NCBI GenBank assembly: GCA_008501735.1
Contig: QQUF01000017.1
Coordinates: forward strand, 1-9,558
Origin: Calditrichota bacterium
GTDB taxonomy: Bacteria; CLD3
Length of the DNA stretch: 9,558 nucleotides
Direction: 5' to 3'
Under the pieces are notes generated by a model. That model worked only from the letters and a program-made list of their open reading frames with translations. It did not search any database and had not been told where the DNA came from. Every line of letters starts with the position of its first letter. Position 1 is the first letter of the stretch. The position numbers and the translations under genes are program-made. This document shows, one piece after another, positions 1 to 8,879 of this stretch.

Positions 1-1418
1 ACATTAATTTATTTGTAAGTCCGGATAAAGGAGTAACTTGGAATTCTCCGACAAAATATCCTTACGCTTCTCATTTTGGTTTTACAGCTCGTAGCGATAC
101 AGCCTACGATTACCAAGAAAGTGGAGCCGGTGGAAGTATTTATCAAGCAAGAAGTTATGATTCGGGAGCAACATTCCAACCTTACGAAACAATTGCAGAC
201 ACAATTTATGCATCAATTCAAACTCCTAAAATTGCTATCGGTGGTAATTCAATACTTCTTTGTCGTGTTGGAGATGATGTTAGTCTTTCTGATAATTTTG
301 CTTATCGTTCATTTGACTTAGGGAACACTTGGTTACCACCTTTTAACATAACTCCTCCGAATATTGATTCACAATTTCCTGATGTTTATTTCCATTCGGG
401 TAAGTTTCATTTTTCAGAAGGTTTTGGTTTTGCTGTTTACAATCGAAGCGATGACTTTGGAAACAGTTTTACACCTCATTGGTTGCTTTGTCTTCCAACA
501 GACAATTGTGCTGTTGACGAACAACAACAAATCACTGCTCACGAAAATAATGTCTTTGTTACTTTTGTTGACCCAAGTGAAGACCCTAAATACAGAATGT
601 TAACAAGGTTTTCAAGAGATGACGGAGATAATTGGTCTCAAGTTCAAATATCTTCAAAAGAAGACCCAAACTTTCCAGCAGTAGGAACTTGGATTTCTAC
701 TGCTGTAGATGACAGTATTTTTTATGTTGTTTATCGTGCAGTTGATTATACAGTTGGAGACCCTTTTGGAGTTCACGAACTTACTTTCCGCAGAGGCTTT
801 TACAAGTTTCCTTTTTTGAGTTTTGAACCTGATACTTTGAAAATCAATTCACAGTTTTTACCAAGTCAGTTGAATACAAACTTTACAGTTAGAAATACAG
901 GTGTAATTGACTTAGAAGTCTCACAAATCGAGCTTCCAAGTTGGATAACTTTACTTTCAGATTCAAGTTTTACACTTCAACCTGATTCAACCAAACAAAT
1001 CGAAATTCAACTTGATTTGACACAACCACTTCTTGAAGCAGAACTTCTCTTTCACACAAACCAACAAATTGATTCAATCAGAAGTTTTGTTGTTTTAGTT
1101 GACACTGTTATTACTGACTTGGGAGAAAAAGAAAACTTACCAAATAAGTTCTCATTGAGTCAGAACTACCCAAATCCATTTAATCCAACAACTACGATTA
1201 ATTACGAATTACAAATTACGAATTACGAGAAATCGACTCTTACAATTTTTAATGTTTTGGGTCAGAAGGTTAAGGAGTTTGAATTAACTAAGAAAGTCGG
1301 TTCGGTAGTCTGGAATGGAACCGATAATTTTGGAAATCCTGTGAGTTCAGGAGTTTATTTGTACCGTCTAAGAAACGGTAGTCTTAGTAAAACCCAAAAG
1401 ATGGTTTTGTTGAAATGA
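1..1418 (+). CDS. Sialidase-like beta-propeller exoprotein with T9SS sorting domain (5' truncated)
   Basis: The frame is open from the first full codon at base 3 to TGA at 1416-1418, so 471 residues are visible and the N-terminus lies upstream of the window. A TTG at 483 could be mistaken for a start, but strong homology to the next gene continues upstream of it in the same frame. Five Asp-box-like motifs (S-x-D-x-G-x-S/T-W/F) lie at bases 18-41, 153-176, 309-332, 447-470 and 612-635, the hallmark of BNR/sialidase-type beta-propellers. A beta-rich Ig-like or anchor-type domain follows (about 815-1115). The end is a T9SS type A sorting domain with NYPNPFNP at 1164-1187 and the terminal residues KMVLLK. 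The protein is therefore probably carried across the outer membrane and attached or released there. Catalytic activity is not shown: I see no clear sialidase Arg triad or FRIP motif, and many such propellers only bind ligands. It is a tandem paralog of the gene at 1534-3786. Confidence 0.9.
   Translation, partial: INLFVSPDKGVTWNSPTKYPYASHFGFTARSDTAYDYQESGAGGSIYQARSYDSGATFQPYETIADTIYASIQTPKIAIGGNSILLCRVGDDVSLSDNFAYRSFDLGNTWLPPFNITPPNIDSQFPDVYFHSGKFHFSEGFGFAVYNRSDDFGNSFTPHWLLCLPTDNCAVDEQQQITAHENNVFVTFVDPSEDPKYRMLTRFSRDDGDNWSQVQISSKEDPNFPAVGTWISTAVDDSIFYVVYRAVDYTVGDPFGVHELTFRRGFYKFPFLSFEPDTLKINSQFLPSQLNTNFTVRNTGVIDLEVSQIELPSWITLLSDSSFTLQPDSTKQIEIQLDLTQPLLEAELLFHTNQQIDSIRSFVVLVDTVITDLGEKENLPNKFSLSQNYPNPFNPTTTINYELQITNYEKSTLTIFNVLGQKVKEFELTKKVGSVVWNGTDNFGNPVSSGVYLYRLRNGSLSKTQKMVLLK
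1164..1418 (+). other. T9SS type A C-terminal sorting domain of the first propeller gene
   Basis: This segment encodes NYPNPFNP, then a linker containing a heptamer array, then a V-L-G-Q-K-V strand, an N-G-T-D-N-F-G-N turn, G-V-Y-L-Y-R-L and terminal KMVLLK. This order matches the Por secretion tail family, recognised by the type IX secretion machinery after Sec export. Downstream of the linker the residues differ clearly from the paralog's sorting domain, although the region before it is identical at the DNA level. Confidence 0.9.
1202..1229 (+). repeat. In-frame heptanucleotide tandem array, copy 1
   Basis: Four adjacent 7-base units read TTACGAA, TTACAAA, TTACGAA and TTACGAG. Seven is not a multiple of three, so successive units are read in different frames; together they encode a segment of the form NYELQITNYE. 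The array sits in the linker just after NYPNPFNP of the sorting domain. The T9SS domain of the 1614-residue gene has an unrelated linker without such units, which suggests the array is an addition rather than part of the family consensus. Confidence 0.85.
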
Positions 1419-1533: not shown

Positions 1534-3786
1534 ATGTTAAAAGAGAAACTAAGAGTAGTAGAAGTAGCTTTAATTTTCGTTTTACAAGCAAGTTTTTGTT
1601 TTGGTGAAAGTCCTCCGAGAGCTTACACAGAATTTGAGAATTACCTTTCAAATGAAAAAGTAATCACAAAAAGATACCAAAGTTCTGGTAGTAGTGAAAC
1701 TTATGTTTTGGTTGGAGTAACTAACCCTGAGAATGGAGAAGCAACACTTTACAGAAGTGTAGTAAGTGGAGTTCCAACTTATGAATGGACAGTTTTGCTG
1801 AAAGACGGTTTCAACTTTTTCGATGAACCAGTAAAAGCGATTTCAGTTAGTGCAAGAAACACAAGGCACATTTTTGTTCAGAGTGAGAGCGGAGAAATTT
1901 ACTTCACAACTGATGGAGGTTTTAGTTTTGAAAAATCAGAGAGCTTAGACGCACCACAGAATAAAACCCATTTTGAAACACTTGTAAAAGATTTTGATTT
2001 AAGTTCAGAATTTCAAGCATCAAAAACGACCCCTTCAAAATACACAAATCAAATAAATGATTTACCGCCTTATGCACCGACAGTTTGGGACACAATTTTA
2101 TGGGATTCAACAGAGACTTTGCTTACAAGTAACATTCCTTCAGGTTGGTTGGCATTTATGCACGGAAGAATCGAAGTTGATGATTCGGGTTTTGTTCACA
2201 TTGCAGCAGTTCAAGAAGATAGATTGCTAAGATATTTTAGAAGCACCGATTACGGAGTAAGTTTTGAACCCGAAGTTGTCTTTCCTGATACAATTGGTGG
2301 CTCCCGTGAAATTGTTGTAACTGAGAATAATGTCTATCTCTATACAATCAATCCTACGATAGGCTATCCTAATCCTCAAGTTAATTTGTTTGTAAGTCAG
2401 GATAAGGGAACAACTTGGAACTTACCAACTAAATTTCCATTTGGAGCGCATCCGGGAGTAACAGCTCGTGGTGATACAGTTTATGATTACCAAGAAAGTG
2501 GAGCAGGAGGAAGTATTTATCAAGCAAGAAGTTATGATTCGGGAGCAACATTCCAACCTTACGAAACAGTTGCAGACACAATTTATGCATCAATTCAAAC
2601 TCCTAAAATTGCCATCGGTGGTAATTCAATACTTCTTTGTCGTGTTGGAGATGATGTTAGTCTTTCTGATAATTTTGCTTATCGTTCATTTGACTTAGGG
2701 AACACTTGGCTACCACCTTTTAACATAACTCCTCCGAATATTGATTCACAATTTCCTGATGTTTATTTTCATTCGGGTAAGTTTCATTTTTCAGAGGGTT
2801 ATGGTTTTGCAGTTTACAATCGAAGTGATGACTATGGAAACAGTTTTACACCTCATTGGTTGCTTTGTCTTCCAACAGACAATTGTGCTGTTGACGAACA
2901 ACAACAACTTACTGCTCACGAAAGTAATGTCTTTACTACTTTTCTTGACCCGGGTGATGCACCAAAAGACTATTTGATAACAAGGTTTTCAAGAGATAAC
3001 GGAGACAATTGGTCTCAAGTTCAACTCGCTTCTCAACAAGCTCCAAGCTATTTGGGAATAGCTCCTTGGTATTCTACTGCCGTAGATGACAGTATTTTTT
3101 ATGTTGTTTATGTAGATGATAATGGAACGCCTTTTGAGTCATTAAAACTAAGGTTCCGTCGAGGTTTTTACAAGTTTCCATTTTTGAGTTTTGAACCTGA
3201 TACTTTGAAAATCAATTCACAGTTTTTACCAAGTCAATTAAGCACAAACTTTACAGTTAGAAACAAAGGTGTAATTGATTTGGAAATTTCACAAATAGAG
3301 CTTCCAAGTTGGATAACTTTACTTTCTGATTCAAGTTTTACACTTCAACCTGATTCAACCAAACAAATCGAAATTCAACTTGATTTGACACAACCACTTC
3401 TTGAAGCAGAACTTCTCTTTCACACAAACCAACAAATTGATTCAATCAGAAGTTTTGTTGTTTTAGTTGACACTGTTATTACTGACTTGGGAGAAAAAGA
3501 AAACTTACCAAATAAGTTCTCATTGAGTCAGAACTACCCAAATCCATTTAATCCAACAACTACGATTAATTACGAATTAGGAATTACGAATTACGAGAAA
3601 TCAGAACTAATAATCTATAACATTCTTGGAGAGGAGGTGAAATCTTGGAAACTAAGTTCCAGTTCAGGTGAGGTAGTTTGGAATGGAACTGATAATTTTG
3701 GGAATCCTGTAAGTTCAGGAGTTTATTTGTATCGTCTAACAAACGGTAGTTTTAACAAAACCAAAAAGATGGTTTTGTTAAAATGA
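1534..3786 (+). CDS. Sialidase-like (Asp-box) beta-propeller exoprotein with T9SS sorting domain
   Basis: This 750-residue protein has a Sec signal peptide at residues 1-24 (basic start MLKEKLR, hydrophobic core, predicted cut near C-F-G/E-S). The signal peptide supports the ATG at 1534, although the upstream sequence is A-rich with no clear Shine-Dalgarno. Asp-box-like motifs occur at residues 125, 237, 288, 333, 385, 431 and 486. The last six are spaced 45-55 residues apart, as expected for a six-bladed sialidase-like propeller. A conserved Cys pair lies in the segment LLCLPTDNC between the last two boxes. Residues about 550-640 form an Ig-like or anchor-type beta domain, and about 660-750 a T9SS type A sorting domain (NYPNPFNP at 667-674, terminal KMVLLK). 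Sec export followed by outer-membrane passage is therefore likely. The ligand is unknown and I see no clear sialidase catalytic set. It is the full-length tandem paralog of the gene ending at 1418, separated from it by 115 bases. Confidence 0.92.
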   Translation: MLKEKLRVVEVALIFVLQASFCFGESPPRAYTEFENYLSNEKVITKRYQSSGSSETYVLVGVTNPENGEATLYRSVVSGVPTYEWTVLLKDGFNFFDEPVKAISVSARNTRHIFVQSESGEIYFTTDGGFSFEKSESLDAPQNKTHFETLVKDFDLSSEFQASKTTPSKYTNQINDLPPYAPTVWDTILWDSTETLLTSNIPSGWLAFMHGRIEVDDSGFVHIAAVQEDRLLRYFRSTDYGVSFEPEVVFPDTIGGSREIVVTENNVYLYTINPTIGYPNPQVNLFVSQDKGTTWNLPTKFPFGAHPGVTARGDTVYDYQESGAGGSIYQARSYDSGATFQPYETVADTIYASIQTPKIAIGGNSILLCRVGDDVSLSDNFAYRSFDLGNTWLPPFNITPPNIDSQFPDVYFHSGKFHFSEGYGFAVYNRSDDYGNSFTPHWLLCLPTDNCAVDEQQQLTAHESNVFTTFLDPGDAPKDYLITRFSRDNGDNWSQVQLASQQAPSYLGIAPWYSTAVDDSIFYVVYVDDNGTPFESLKLRFRRGFYKFPFLSFEPDTLKINSQFLPSQLSTNFTVRNKGVIDLEISQIELPSWITLLSDSSFTLQPDSTKQIEIQLDLTQPLLEAELLFHTNQQIDSIRSFVVLVDTVITDLGEKENLPNKFSLSQNYPNPFNPTTTINYELGITNYEKSELIIYNILGEEVKSWKLSSSSGEVVWNGTDNFGNPVSSGVYLYRLTNGSFNKTKKMVLLK
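3532..3786 (+). other. T9SS type A C-terminal sorting domain of the second propeller gene
   Basis: The segment encodes NYPNPFNP, a heptamer-array linker, a strand ending in I-L-G-E-E-V, the turn N-G-T-D-N-F-G-N, G-V-Y-L-Y-R-L and KMVLLK. It has the usual architecture of the Por secretion tail. Sequence after the heptamer array (residues about 690-710) differs strongly from copy 1, then becomes similar again toward the end. Confidence 0.9.
3570..3597 (+). repeat. In-frame heptanucleotide tandem array, copy 2
   Basis: Four adjacent 7-base units read TTACGAA, TTAGGAA, TTACGAA and TTACGAG. It occupies the same position in the sorting-domain linker as the array at 1202-1229. The second unit differs between the copies (TTACAAA versus TTAGGAA), changing Q-I to G-I in the protein. 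The reading frame is kept in both. Confidence 0.85.
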
Positions 3787-3793
3787 TTTAATT

Positions 3794-3859
3794 GAGAACC
3801 CGACGAAAAAAGTCGGAGTCTCAAAAAATTCTGAGATTCTCACTCAAAGTGAGGCTCTC
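3794..3859 (+). repeat. 66-nt hairpin-rich intergenic element, copy 2
   Basis: This is identical over 66 bases to 1425-1490 and again starts just after the stop codon of a propeller gene (7 bases). The same three possible stems are present. It is followed by AGTTCTTAACTG, again without a T-run on the + strand. Read on the minus strand, hairpin C is followed by a run of six T, so terminator activity is more plausible for antisense transcription, although no minus-strand gene is visible here. Confidence 0.75.
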
Positions 3860-3923
3860 AGTTCTTAACTGTATTTTCAGTAGTGGTAAAAATAAAACAT
3901 TAGAGACCTGCGAAAATTTCTAA

Positions 3924-4034: not shown

Positions 4035-7000
4035 ATGTTGAAAAGGCAAACTTTGATGGCAACATCAGTAATTTTAGCTTCGGCTATATGTATTCAAGCA
4101 CAAACCACTGTAACACATTCAAATAATTTTGAGGTTTACAATGGTGAATTCAAGGAATTTAGAAGTGTAAAAGACATTTCTATTTCTGATGATAAAGTCT
4201 ATGTAATTAATTCAAGCTTTTACTTGGAAGGAACAACCACATTCAAACACAATACCGATGAGACTGTCGGTGCTATGTTAAAATCAAATCCAACTGCCGG
4301 ATTTTCGGAGTTTGTGATAAATGAAACAACAGCCGAATTTTCCAAAACAGATAAAAAGAATGTAAATTCAATCACTTCTGCAACAGTTGGAAGCGATGAG
4401 ATTTTATTCCTTGGAACCACAAATAGTCAAGTAAGAAAATACACTGGTTCATCTTGGGAAGATGAAGATGACTCAGAAACAAACTTGCCTATAAATTTTT
4501 CTGCAAATGCCTTTGCTAATTTTGAAGACCTTAACTTTACAAAAACCTTACTTGGTTTATCGAATGCCACAAATACAAGCGGAACCCCTCAAGCAACTCT
4601 TTACCAAGCTACAATGAATGTTGGAATTGCAGATTGGGCAAAGATTAACAAAAAGACAGGAGTTGAATTCAAAATGCCTGTTGTAGATATTTTGGTAAGT
4701 GATTATTCTGAGTATGGAACAAAGGTATTTGTAGCAGTCAATGATGGGAAGGGTGATAATGGAGCAGATGTAGATATTTCTCCTACAGATACAACTCAAG
4801 TAAATCAAAATGGGATTTGGGTCTCAGATGATTTATCGGCAGGTTTTACAAAATTAGAGCTTCTTGACGGAAGTTCTAGCCCGATTAAAGAGCAGTATTT
4901 TATTACAAGTCTTGGTTATGCCGCACCTGACAAACATTCGGATAATGCAAGTGCTTGGTTTGATACTGAAATTATTTTTGGGGTTTATAACATTCCCGAT
5001 GGAATTGGAGACAACGAACCTACTTTACCTTATGTAACTCAAGAAGATGACGGAATTGTTGACCAATACGGTTGTGGAATTCTTGCTCAGAAAATTGATG
5101 CAACAGACGGAACTGCTTTGGGAGATTGGAACCAATACAATTTAAGTCACGAAAATGGGACTTCTTCCGGTGATTTTGTTTCCCAGACAGAAGCGGCAAA
5201 TTTTTTGACAGATATGGAATTTATTTACGAATTTGATTCACAAACAGCAGGAATGCCAGCTATTTATGTTTCAGATTATGGAAATGGTCTTTACAGATTA
5301 TCAGATTTGAGCTACAACAATCTTTATGGAGCTTCAAGCACAGCACAAATCGGAAGTTACACTTGGGACGGTTCAACAGGTGGACAAAAAGAACATCTGA
5401 CAAATCTTGAAGAAAACCGAGATTTCGGAGCTTTTACATTGCAAAGTGAACTGTATGAAGACACTAACGAAAATAAACTCCAAGATATTTATCTCGGTGG
5501 TTTTAGAAGTTGCCAAAGAATGCTTTCGCCTAAATCGAATGACAAAGAATGGACAGCTTTAAAAGGATATGTTGAGCCTCAACACGGAATCGAATATGTT
5601 AATACTAGTGTTATCACTTCCACCCAAAATTCAACAGAACCAACACCAAGAGGAATCGTAGCAACAAATGGCAGTGTTTACATAAATATGACTAATGATT
5701 CTGACCTTGACGAGACTACCAAGTGGGAATTTTATTTTTCTCCGGGTGGTGCGATAACTTCATTTGCATCAGATAGATTTGGTGATTTAGAAGTTTATAG
5801 TAATGGACTTGAGCCTAATACTGATGCAAATGTAACAGACGGAATGGTTGTTGGTTGTAATCACGAAGACTTTGTAAAAGTAGTAAGTAGTGCAGTAGTC
5901 AGTGACCCACGAAATACAATCTATAATGTGAAAGAAGGCTATTCAATAAATTGGGATAATCTACCTGCTACTTTTAGTTCGGGTGATTCTTATGGTGAAA
6001 GAACAAATTATTACAATCGTAAAAGATTAGTAAATGATTTGGCTCTTATTGGAGGAAATAACCCTATTGTCATTGGAGCGATTGGAGATTGTCCGGGAGG
6101 AGCGAATAAGGATTGCGACGAAAGTATAACAGCAACAACTAATGGAGATAACTTGAGATTTATTATTGCAGGAACTCCTGACAATTTACAAGGAATTCAT
6201 AAATATGTCTCAGAAAGTTACGATGGAGTTCCTACATCATCTGATGTAAATGTAACAAAATTAGGTTTATGGTCTGATTTACTAAAAACTTCTTCGACTC
6301 AAACCTTTGGAACAGATGAGTTCTTTGATGATGGTTATCACGCAATTTATGGTATTTCAGATAACGGAACAAAAGTTTGGGAAGTTTATTTAAATACTGA
6401 TGAGAGCCTAAAAAAGATAACTTCAAAAACATCAATTACGGGTGTAACAGGAACTTTTAATGACATCAGTGTTGCAACAACGAATTTTATTTCTGCAATT
6501 CCAAACTTAGATGCAGAGGATTTGTTTTACAGCGTAATGCTTGCAGGTAGTAATGGAATTTTTATTAGCGAAAGAGTTAATGAAGATGACGTAACGAATC
6601 CGTCTTTTTCTTCTGTCTTGAATACTACATTTGAAAATATTAGTCCAATTGCGAATTTGGGAAGTAATTCATCTTACCTAACTTTTTCCGAAAGACCAAT
6701 GCGTTCAGTCAATGAAAATGAAGTTCTTTGCGTTTACTCGAACAGTGGTGAAAGTTGGAATAATATTATTTATACAAACAATCTAATTGAAGGCGACTTT
6801 GGAAATTGTAACACGATACCGAGTAATATCACTTTTGAACGAGAAGATATTGATTGGATAAAAGTTACAGATTTTGATAGTCATACTTTGCCTTACCCCA
6901 AGTCTTTGTGGTATTCAAATGACTCGGAAAGGGGAGTTCAAGCTACTGATGCAAATGGCAATCCTATATGCACTTCTTTATTCGGAACATCATTTGGAAA

Positions 7001-8879
7001 TTATGAAGATAGATTGTTTGCTGTTTGTAATAAACGTGTTGACGAAAACTTATGGGTTTCAAAAACCGATAATATTTTCAAAATTTCAGATACTGAAATT
7101 TCCGATTTGTTAACCAATAATAGCACTATAAATCTAAGAGGGAGTTTTTGGGTTGAACCTGTAAGTGATGTACAAATTAATACGGGGAAAACCTTAGATT
7201 TAGCTCCTAATCAGACAGCGTATGGAAGTATTGCAGGTCTGTATTTTTTCTCAAAAGATTCTCCAACTCATAAAATTGATTTGAATGGCGGAACTTTAAA
7301 AGTTTCTGATGCTATAATTTCTTCGACTCGTCAAAATTCGACTCCAAGAGTAGGCGATTCAGGGACTGATGATGACTGGACAGGAATTGGAATTAGTAGC
7401 AATAATTCAGAAATTGAGATTTCCGGTAGTACTATTGCAAACTGTGAGTTTGGTGTATTTAAAAATTCGGCAACGGTTTTTAATGATGTTAAATTAGACT
7501 TGAATGAAACTTCAATAGATAATGTGAAAAGGTATGAGATTTATTTAACCAATCTGACCACCTATCAAAAAAACCAAATAAAACTTTACCTTTGTGAATT
7601 TACAGGGTCTAATTTTGGAACAAATGGAGCAGGAGTTTTCCTTAATAAGGTAAACTTTACAGGTTTGGAAAAAGACTATAGTGTATCAATAGATACTTGT
7701 AGCTTCTTAGGTAATAGGAATTATGGAGTTTATGTTTCAAATGCATCGGATATTGAAATAAATAGAAACATTTTGGAAGGAATTATTGATTACGATGCCA
7801 TAAGTATTTCCGATGTCTCAAATAGTACTGCCAGAATCCATAGAAATAAGATTTCAGGTGTTTTAAGTGGTTCATTAAAACCTATCAATGGAATTTATTG
7901 TTCTGATAGCAGAACGGATATTTGGAACAACAAAATCGAAGATACCAAATATGGAATTTATTTAACGAATAGTACGGAATCTCATATTGAAGAGAATAAT
8001 CTTATTGCTAACACAGCTAATTCAATAGCAGGAATTGGAATAAATGGAGCTGATAATTTTGTTTCGGGAGCCGGAATCAAAGTTTGGACTAATAGAGATA
8101 TTAAAGGTTACCCAAAAGCAATTTGGGCTTCTTCAAATGAAACCGGTTTAAATCTTGACGTAGGTAAAGAAGATGATTTTGACAAAGCCAATAAAATTCA
8201 CAGAAATTCTTATGCTTTTTTCTTTGAGTTAAATAGTTCGGGCTTCACTTCAAAAATTCGTCGAAACACAGCCTTTGAACAACAAAACAAATTCATTTAT
8301 GTTTCTTCAAACAATTCAAGCACAACAATTGATGCAGGTTTAGAGGAGGATAATGGAGAAAACTCCTTTGATCCATTAAACTCTTCTACTCCACCAATAT
8401 CATTTGATACTTCTGTCAGAGTAGAAAATCTTTCTACTTCAACCACTGTCCACGCAGTAGGTAATTATTGGGGAATTCCGGAAGAAGAATTAAATACAAA
8501 TGGTAGTGCTTATTTTGACGGAACAATTAATTGGAGTCCGGCACTTTTTGCAAAACCAACACAATTGCCTAAAGTAACAACTGAAATAATTCCTGAAAGT
8601 TTTTCACTCAAGCAAAATTATCCAAACCCTTTTAATCCTTCAACAACAATTGAGTATTGGATTCCGAATCAAGGTGAAGGTTTTGTAACTCTAAAAATTT
8701 ACAATGTCCTTGGACAGGAGGTGAAAACTTTAGTCAATGAAGTTAGACAAACCGGAATTCATAAAATTTTGTGGAATGGAACAGATGAAAATGGTAAATC
8801 TGTAGCTTCGGGAGTTTATTTCTACCGAATTAATGCAGGCGACTTTGTAAGTAGCAAAAAACTTTTACTTCTCAAATAG
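4035..8879 (+). CDS. Giant exoprotein: propeller-like region, parallel beta-helix, T9SS sorting domain
   Basis: This 1614-residue protein starts with a Sec signal peptide (MLKRQT, hydrophobic core, predicted cut after I-Q-A at residue 22 or the next residue). The first about 1040 residues are not assigned to a family with confidence. They contain scattered segments such as GIWVSDDLSAGF, GIFISERV and YSNSGESWNNI that resemble blades of WD/BNR-type propellers, and a close Cys pair at residues 686 and 694. Residues about 1045-1500 read as a right-handed parallel beta-helix: repeated short strands with N and D at turns (for example I-E-I-N-R-N-I-L, I-W-N-N-K-I-E-D, I-E-E-N-N-L-I), closing with GNYWGIP near 1476, a common last-coil motif. 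Residues about 1520-1614 are a T9SS type A sorting domain (NYPNPFNP at 1528-1535, terminal KLLLLK). The likely location is the cell surface or the medium. Beta-helices of this kind bind or cleave polysaccharides or act as adhesins, and I see no decisive catalytic motif. It is probably co-transcribed with the gene at 8892. Confidence 0.9.
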   Translation: MLKRQTLMATSVILASAICIQAQTTVTHSNNFEVYNGEFKEFRSVKDISISDDKVYVINSSFYLEGTTTFKHNTDETVGAMLKSNPTAGFSEFVINETTAEFSKTDKKNVNSITSATVGSDEILFLGTTNSQVRKYTGSSWEDEDDSETNLPINFSANAFANFEDLNFTKTLLGLSNATNTSGTPQATLYQATMNVGIADWAKINKKTGVEFKMPVVDILVSDYSEYGTKVFVAVNDGKGDNGADVDISPTDTTQVNQNGIWVSDDLSAGFTKLELLDGSSSPIKEQYFITSLGYAAPDKHSDNASAWFDTEIIFGVYNIPDGIGDNEPTLPYVTQEDDGIVDQYGCGILAQKIDATDGTALGDWNQYNLSHENGTSSGDFVSQTEAANFLTDMEFIYEFDSQTAGMPAIYVSDYGNGLYRLSDLSYNNLYGASSTAQIGSYTWDGSTGGQKEHLTNLEENRDFGAFTLQSELYEDTNENKLQDIYLGGFRSCQRMLSPKSNDKEWTALKGYVEPQHGIEYVNTSVITSTQNSTEPTPRGIVATNGSVYINMTNDSDLDETTKWEFYFSPGGAITSFASDRFGDLEVYSNGLEPNTDANVTDGMVVGCNHEDFVKVVSSAVVSDPRNTIYNVKEGYSINWDNLPATFSSGDSYGERTNYYNRKRLVNDLALIGGNNPIVIGAIGDCPGGANKDCDESITATTNGDNLRFIIAGTPDNLQGIHKYVSESYDGVPTSSDVNVTKLGLWSDLLKTSSTQTFGTDEFFDDGYHAIYGISDNGTKVWEVYLNTDESLKKITSKTSITGVTGTFNDISVATTNFISAIPNLDAEDLFYSVMLAGSNGIFISERVNEDDVTNPSFSSVLNTTFENISPIANLGSNSSYLTFSERPMRSVNENEVLCVYSNSGESWNNIIYTNNLIEGDFGNCNTIPSNITFEREDIDWIKVTDFDSHTLPYPKSLWYSNDSERGVQATDANGNPICTSLFGTSFGNYEDRLFAVCNKRVDENLWVSKTDNIFKISDTEISDLLTNNSTINLRGSFWVEPVSDVQINTGKTLDLAPNQTAYGSIAGLYFFSKDSPTHKIDLNGGTLKVSDAIISSTRQNSTPRVGDSGTDDDWTGIGISSNNSEIEISGSTIANCEFGVFKNSATVFNDVKLDLNETSIDNVKRYEIYLTNLTTYQKNQIKLYLCEFTGSNFGTNGAGVFLNKVNFTGLEKDYSVSIDTCSFLGNRNYGVYVSNASDIEINRNILEGIIDYDAISISDVSNSTARIHRNKISGVLSGSLKPINGIYCSDSRTDIWNNKIEDTKYGIYLTNSTESHIEENNLIANTANSIAGIGINGADNFVSGAGIKVWTNRDIKGYPKAIWASSNETGLNLDVGKEDDFDKANKIHRNSYAFFFELNSSGFTSKIRRNTAFEQQNKFIYVSSNNSSTTIDAGLEEDNGENSFDPLNSSTPPISFDTSVRVENLSTSTTVHAVGNYWGIPEEELNTNGSAYFDGTINWSPALFAKPTQLPKVTTEIIPESFSLKQNYPNPFNPSTTIEYWIPNQGEGFVTLKIYNVLGQEVKTLVNEVRQTGIHKILWNGTDENGKSVASGVYFYRINAGDFVSSKKLLLLK
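7165..8535 (+). other. Right-handed parallel beta-helix region within the giant exoprotein
   Basis: Corresponding to residues about 1045-1500, this region consists of repeated coils of about 20-25 residues with alternating hydrophobic strand positions and Asn/Ser/Asp turns. Phrases such as GVYVSNASDIEINRN, GIYCSDSRTDIWNNK and GIYLTNSTESHIEENN show the pattern G-(I/V)-Y-(V/C/L)-x followed by I-x-x-N. This is typical of PbH1-type repeats found in pectate-lyase-like and surface adhesin proteins. Boundaries are approximate. Confidence 0.75.
8592..8879 (+). other. T9SS type A C-terminal sorting domain of the giant exoprotein
   Basis: The segment encodes P-E-S-F-S-L-K-Q-NYPNPFNP, the linker STTIEYWIPNQGEGFV, Y-N-V-L-G-Q-E-V, N-G-T-D-E-N-G, G-V-Y-F-Y-R-I and terminal KLLLLK. 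It is a canonical example of the family and has no heptamer array in the linker, in contrast to the two propeller genes. Confidence 0.93.

Follow-up and report, generated by a model that had tools for sequence, protein, structure and literature searches.

A heptanucleotide repeat in one codon slot of many T9SS sorting domains of a Calditrichota genome

Rickettsia palindromic elements are small repeats that have been put in frame into many protein genes, and in this they resemble the arrays described here. They are palindromes of about 100-150 bp found in unrelated proteins, whereas the present arrays are direct repeats of about 30 bp in one homologous slot. The TAACTGA repeats of Beggiatoaceae, Cyanobacteria, and Bacteroidetes are, like the arrays here, short tandem sets of a 7-nt unit found at many sites per genome and with a scattered phylogenetic distribution (MacGregor, 2015; PMC4679880). 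Both kinds also occur occasionally in frame where one strand is free of stops, giving LSVISYQ in the one case and NYELRIT in the other (PMC4679880). The TAACTGA repeats are, however, mainly intergenic and found just upstream of start codons, and those within ORFs share no common protein context, while most copies here lie in one domain slot (PMC4679880). The unit also differs, being AATTACG here and neither TAACTGA nor its complement. No mechanism of movement was evident for the TAACTGA repeats (PMC4679880). The cyanobacterial STRR sequences are, as far as the citing passage describes them, likewise usually of 7 bp, dispersed, and of unknown function, but they are intergenic or intercistronic and not, as here, part of a secretion-signal domain family (Mazel et al., 1990, cited in PMC2670836). 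Ordinary members of TIGR04183/PF18962 encode their strand-turn-strand without any DNA repeat; the array-bearing domains still score above the NCBIfam cut-off. Literature searches using the bare heptamer returned primer sequences only, and the passages retrieved for T9SS and gene conversion concerned domain exchange in P. gingivalis and not a repeat in the sorting domain. The arrays belong to a known class of repeat, but where they lie and the way they are spread are unusual.

The window, that is the whole stretch of DNA analysed, comprises 9,558 nt of contig QQUF01000017.1 (C9) from a Calditrichota genome of 4.14 Mb (G000, here called the source genome). It contains two propeller genes, a beta-helix protein gene, and a fourth, small gene encoding 164 residues. 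The first three each encode a C-terminal T9SS type A sorting domain (CTD) scoring above the curated TIGR04183 cut-off of 23 bits; the domain is also described as PF18962 (Table 1). By C-terminal profile match the array-bearing CTDs are members of the T9SS type A sorting domain, with a predicted role in secretion. At 1200-1228 and 3568-3596 Tandem Repeats Finder detects a repeat of period 7 with 4.1 copies and the consensus AATTACG, and the window holds six two-unit matches where shuffles give 0.10; the 7-nt tandem units are beyond chance. The sequence-only reading that preceded this study described four in-frame 7-base units in both propeller genes and a third T9SS domain with an ordinary linker. 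Tandem Repeats Finder, shuffles, and translation confirm the former, and the latter agrees with the alignment, where the CTD of the beta-helix gene has the unrelated sequence EYWIPNQGEGFVTL at the corresponding place. That the arrays were a matter of the two propeller genes did not hold, as about 45 CTDs of the genome carry one.

Table 1. Positions of the genes, sorting domains, and heptamer arrays in the window.
Feature	Position	Strand	Remarks
Propeller gene 1	3..1418	+	5' end cut by the contig end; weak BNR/Sortilin matches
CTD of propeller gene 1	1140..1415	+	TIGR04183 40.0 bits; array-bearing, short-hairpin subfamily (alignment)
Heptamer array 1	1200..1229	+	Units AATTACG, AATTACA, AATTACG, AATTACG, then AG; in frame, NYELQITNYE, in CTD of propeller gene 1
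Propeller gene 2	1534..3786	+	750 aa; weak Sortilin/BNR matches; closely resembles propeller gene 1
CTD of propeller gene 2	3508..3783	+	TIGR04183 35.9 bits; array-bearing; structure modelled
Heptamer array 2	3568..3597	+	Units AATTACG, AATTAGG, AATTACG, AATTACG, then AG; in frame, NYELGITNYE, in CTD of propeller gene 2
Beta-helix protein gene	4035..8879	+	1614 aa; CTD array-free
CTD of beta-helix gene	8592..8876	+	TIGR04183 39.1 bits; long-hairpin type, array-free (alignment); control within the window

The spacers 3' of the two propeller genes (1424-1497 and 3790-3862) are near-identical, each with two hairpin-like palindromes. A nearly unchanged copy of the CTD of propeller gene 1 is found close to the end of another contig (L056/L057, C58:1-2426). 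The window contig therefore probably stops in a repeated gene, with an assembly break at that point.

In the source genome the two-unit pattern AATTACGAATTACG has 38 matches and its reversed control none, while three-unit arrays with at most three mismatches number 138 against 20 in the control; the genome does hold further arrays, for which the sequence-only reading had proposed a search. Apart from a handful, the AATTACG arrays are nearly all in T9SS CTDs, where the reading frame is invariably TTTINYELxITNYE, and orientation and place are identical in every CTD gene carrying one. TIGR04183 scored 150 CTDs out of 243 first-look candidates. Among the 175 distinct CTDs that were read, 39 have the strict peptide NYELxxxNYE and 44-48 qualify under relaxed rules; about 45 of at least 175 is an upper estimate of the fraction, as the array loci were all fetched deliberately. 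The source genome thus has the many unlinked copies typical of dispersed heptanucleotide repeats, but its AATTACG arrays are mostly coding and not mainly intergenic. To call them tolerated in a linker, as had been done, undersells a pattern in which one slot of one CTD subfamily is filled genome-wide.

The DNA spelling of the arrays is far more uniform than the peptide would require. In 44 array CTDs the heptamer codon is used in 335 of the 375 array codons that encode the same residue, where 205 (sd 8.4) would be expected from the codon usage of the window genes. The flanking codons are at background, both upstream (0.60, expected 0.60) and downstream (0.66, expected 0.65). The array threonine is ACG in 25 of 32 copies although ACG makes up 6% of the threonine codons in the sampled genes, a count biased by the choice of copies on their DNA. 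A search of the whole genome with every synonymous codon of NYELxIxNYE avoids such selection; it gave 39 matches, all 39 in heptamer DNA and none in other codons. In the source genome the peptide hence exists only as the repeat. Residue x (codon 15, at the end of unit 2) is free, with eight dinucleotide types, while the remaining residues are the same in almost every copy. Synonymous identity is 0.83 among array copies and 0.51 among their flanks, and the correlation between the two is weak (r 0.16). The copies thus share more identity at the DNA level than shared descent of the domains gives. These comparisons support a repeat origin at the DNA level and not a conserved protein motif, as the sequence-only reading had proposed; an absence of other arrays from the genome, or unrelated codons for the same residues, would have spoken against it, and neither is found.

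The arrays are confined to one slot, one length, and one CTD subfamily. Of the 48 array CTDs, 47 have a spacing of 17 between the isoleucine of PNPFNPxTxI and the phenylalanine of the following strand; the value is 15 in most array-less short-hairpin CTDs and in most long-hairpin CTDs. The difference amounts to a net gain of 6 nt (two codons), which is not a multiple of seven, and the number of units is fixed. None of the about 94 long-hairpin CTDs carries an array, and about 20 CTDs of the short-hairpin subfamily in the source genome are without one. Genes with one, seven, or ten units are absent among the 48 array CTDs of the source genome. The variation in unit number between copies that marks a contingency locus is thus not seen, and the gain or loss of three units envisaged earlier for T9SS genes does not occur in these domains, where 47 of 48 have equal spacing. 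Structure prediction, confined to the three CTDs of the window, gave a modest AlphaFold model (pLDDT 69.5) of the CTD of propeller gene 2. It has strands at residues 17-23 and 32-38, with array residues 21-30 covering the close of the first strand and the turn behind it. According to this model the array is not in a linker, where it had been placed, but would encode, within the CTD itself, the last part of a β-strand and the turn that leads to the following one. The Ig domain of the FlgD hook cap is among the best PDB fold matches of the model, with a weak E-value of 2.6e-3, and this agrees with FlgD_ig profile matches. A turn between strands could accept a foreign stretch of fixed length. Some array-less CTDs (L087, L309, and L092) have another heptamer-like run, AATTATCAGCTATCAGTGAACAGTGAA, in the slot, with the peptide INYQLSVNSEG, which resembles the LSVISYQ translation of TAACTGA repeats. 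In a weak test of 7-nt periodicity (lag 7) among array-less slots, two of 23 short-hairpin CTDs had z > 2.5 (L087 and L309). A second heptamer flavour in the CTD slot is a lead that these domains offer.

None of 59 other genomes has the exact array; one of these belongs to the same family and seven to the same class. The nearest relative among them, from the same family but another genus (G001), has the short-hairpin subfamily too, in many CTDs that lack arrays and show a spacing of 15; none of its 45 CTDs that were read combines the array spacing with a short hairpin. Twelve reciprocal-best cargo pairs, with cargo identities of 38-66% (at least 54% in seven of them), have the array in the source genome and not in G001. 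These are L030/L387, L019/L391, L024/L403, L025/L329, L065/L393, L070/L395, L066/L398, L074/L400, L015/L390, and L071/L411, as well as L061 and L021 with two genes of L402; best matches were sought among the fetched stretches, and a few of the twelve may be paralogs. The array is accordingly absent from the relative's orthologs. Downstream of the array, the CTDs of these pairs have 48-67% identity between the two genomes, and the mean among array paralogs of the source genome is 58.5%. This part of the domain does not resemble the paralogs more than the orthologs, so what the copies within the genome share is the array, while the rest of the domain has not been homogenised; its spread is uncoupled from the rest of the CTD. 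Judged from these alignments the array seems to have come into genes that already existed, unaccompanied by the rest of the domain, and the simplest reading is that it is younger than the divergence of its flanks.

Outside this genome the arrays are mostly found in a different setting. The sequence AATTACGAATTANNAATTACGAATTACGA occurs in at least 115 stretches of named genomes, and the matches listed come from Cyanobacteria (including Nostoc, Calothrix, and Planktothrix), Bacteroidota, Planctomycetota, Chloroflexi, Acidobacteria, Verrucomicrobia, Endomicrobium, a Vibrio, and a Methanophagales MAG, where MAG contigs may be misbinned. The Methanophagales contig (L160) holds the exact array, one unit being a TG variant, reflecting either archaeal presence or misbinning. 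Among the matches listed from other genomes, 97 of 129 arrays are outside long reading frames, in keeping with the earlier statement that similar heptamers lie dispersed in noncoding DNA of several bacterial groups, and none of the 129 follows the PNPF motif of a CTD. The coding examples elsewhere have the array in frame, and none was called antisense within an ORF, the orientation in which the array has stops. In 82 genomes of the phylum of a T9SS-rich genome the peptide has seven matches in four genomes, none seen in a CTD. In-frame heptamer arrays are also found in reading frames of an Ignavibacteriales MAG (L152) and an Acidobacteria MAG (L156), which by eye we take to be UvrC and PheT, respectively. 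A Dolichospermum gene with several in-frame AATTACG arrays, presumably a DNA methyltransferase judged by eye, has five units where its Sphaerospermopsis homolog has two, a difference of exactly 21 nt or seven residues, in frame (L188 and L232). The arithmetic by which three units keep the frame is thereby confirmed outside T9SS genes; of the earlier rule this part stands, while its application to the T9SS CTDs, with their fixed length, does not.

The few noncoding AATTACG-type or mixed arrays of the source genome start at, just after, or overlapping the stop codon of the left-hand gene. Pure AATTAAG arrays, which contain TAA, are mostly found upstream of start codons in antisense, as (CTTAATT)n; for four the distance to the start is 8 nt or less (noncoding loci L026, L027, L032, L079, L007, L077, L093, and L095; L080, L083, L085, L088-L091, L094, L096, and L099). 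Among the matches listed from other genomes, the array is within about 10 nt of, or overlaps, the end of a neighbouring gene in 46 of 114 cases and the start in 14 of 94, counted from gap lists made with a simple ORF caller.

With slightly better than even confidence, we hold that an AATTACG-type repeat spread at the DNA level, by copying between genes, until about 45 CTDs had it in the same codon slot. The seed would be the strand INYEL, often spelled AATTAYGAATTA and then already two near-heptamers; some array-less CTDs of G001 show three, AATTATGAATTAAAAATTAAT. A four-unit version with two additional codons may have arisen at such a seed or been copied from a dispersed array. Further CTD genes would then have received short stretches of it, but not the domain around them, possibly by short-patch gene conversion or by template switching at shared AATTA. 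The turn after the strand TTTINYEL would tolerate the ten residues NYELxITNYE, near-neutral for the protein, so that in-frame copies survived. We infer a gain in the source genome and not a loss in G001, and the constant 6 nt points to one version being copied and not to separate slippage. Mobility of the array elsewhere is supported by its in-frame presence and by the differing unit numbers of the two cyanobacterial homologs. No donor, breakpoint, or intermediate was caught among the CTDs of the source genome and G001. The eight dinucleotide types at codon 15 argue against one recent template, unless the copied patch starts after codon 15 or any residue is allowed there. The array spacing is also seen in seven array-less CTDs, which may be decayed arrays, in which case some copies are old. 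The array is moreover close to what the strand INYELxI gives in AT-rich codons, so its left half may be partly ancestral.

The main rival to an entry of the array into existing genes is selection at the nucleotide level, with the array as a functional DNA or RNA element (a binding site, a recombination site, or an mRNA signal) under purifying selection while its flanks drifted. The nearly fixed synonymous sites of the array next to flanking ones at background fit this, as do the constant orientation and place, the repeats of this class at gene boundaries in the source genome and others, and the translational or regulatory roles proposed for TAACTGA repeats (PMC4679880) and STRRs (PMC2670836). 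It is nonetheless unlikely: all orthologs in G001 lack the array while cargo and CTDs are retained there, about 20 members of this subfamily in the source genome do without it, and no partner protein or structure was identified. An old single origin, in which one array CTD multiplied by domain duplication and shuffling and its flanks have diverged since, would explain the one length and subfamily and the likeness of array CTDs downstream of the array. Flanks saturated at synonymous sites beside arrays that are not, cargo orthologs without the array, and a remainder of the CTD no closer to paralogs than to orthologs make this improbable.

Slippage could also have acted independently, each CTD expanding its own AATTAYGAATTA seed. 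Seed-like DNA such as AATTATGAATTAAAAATTAAT does occur in array-less CTDs and in G001, and heptamers are, in the citing paper's account, the commonest long simple repeats, for which slippage has been proposed (Mrazek et al., 2007, as cited in PMC4679880). Independent events would hardly converge in 47 of 48 genes on four units and an identical net gain of 6 nt and leave none with one, seven, or ten, which renders this very improbable. That NYELxITNYE is a conserved protein motif, whose codons form a DNA repeat by chance, has next to no probability; a free x among residues conserved in nearly all copies would suit a motif, but all 39 copies in heptamer codons, including the rare ACG, contradict it, and the same DNA is found outside reading frames too. 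A selfish micro-element of about 30 bp that homes into the CTD codon slot and copies itself between paralogs without the domain around it, or an array that serves the cell as a fixed crossover point for exchanging cargo and CTDs, is quite doubtful.

How heptanucleotide repeats move and multiply is a question that concerns many bacterial groups. With about 45 copies in homologous, alignable sites and array-free orthologs at hand, one can measure insertion borders, the net change in length, and how old the arrays are compared with their flanks. In this genome repeat DNA of a noncoding type supplies the same protein stretch to dozens of predicted secreted proteins.
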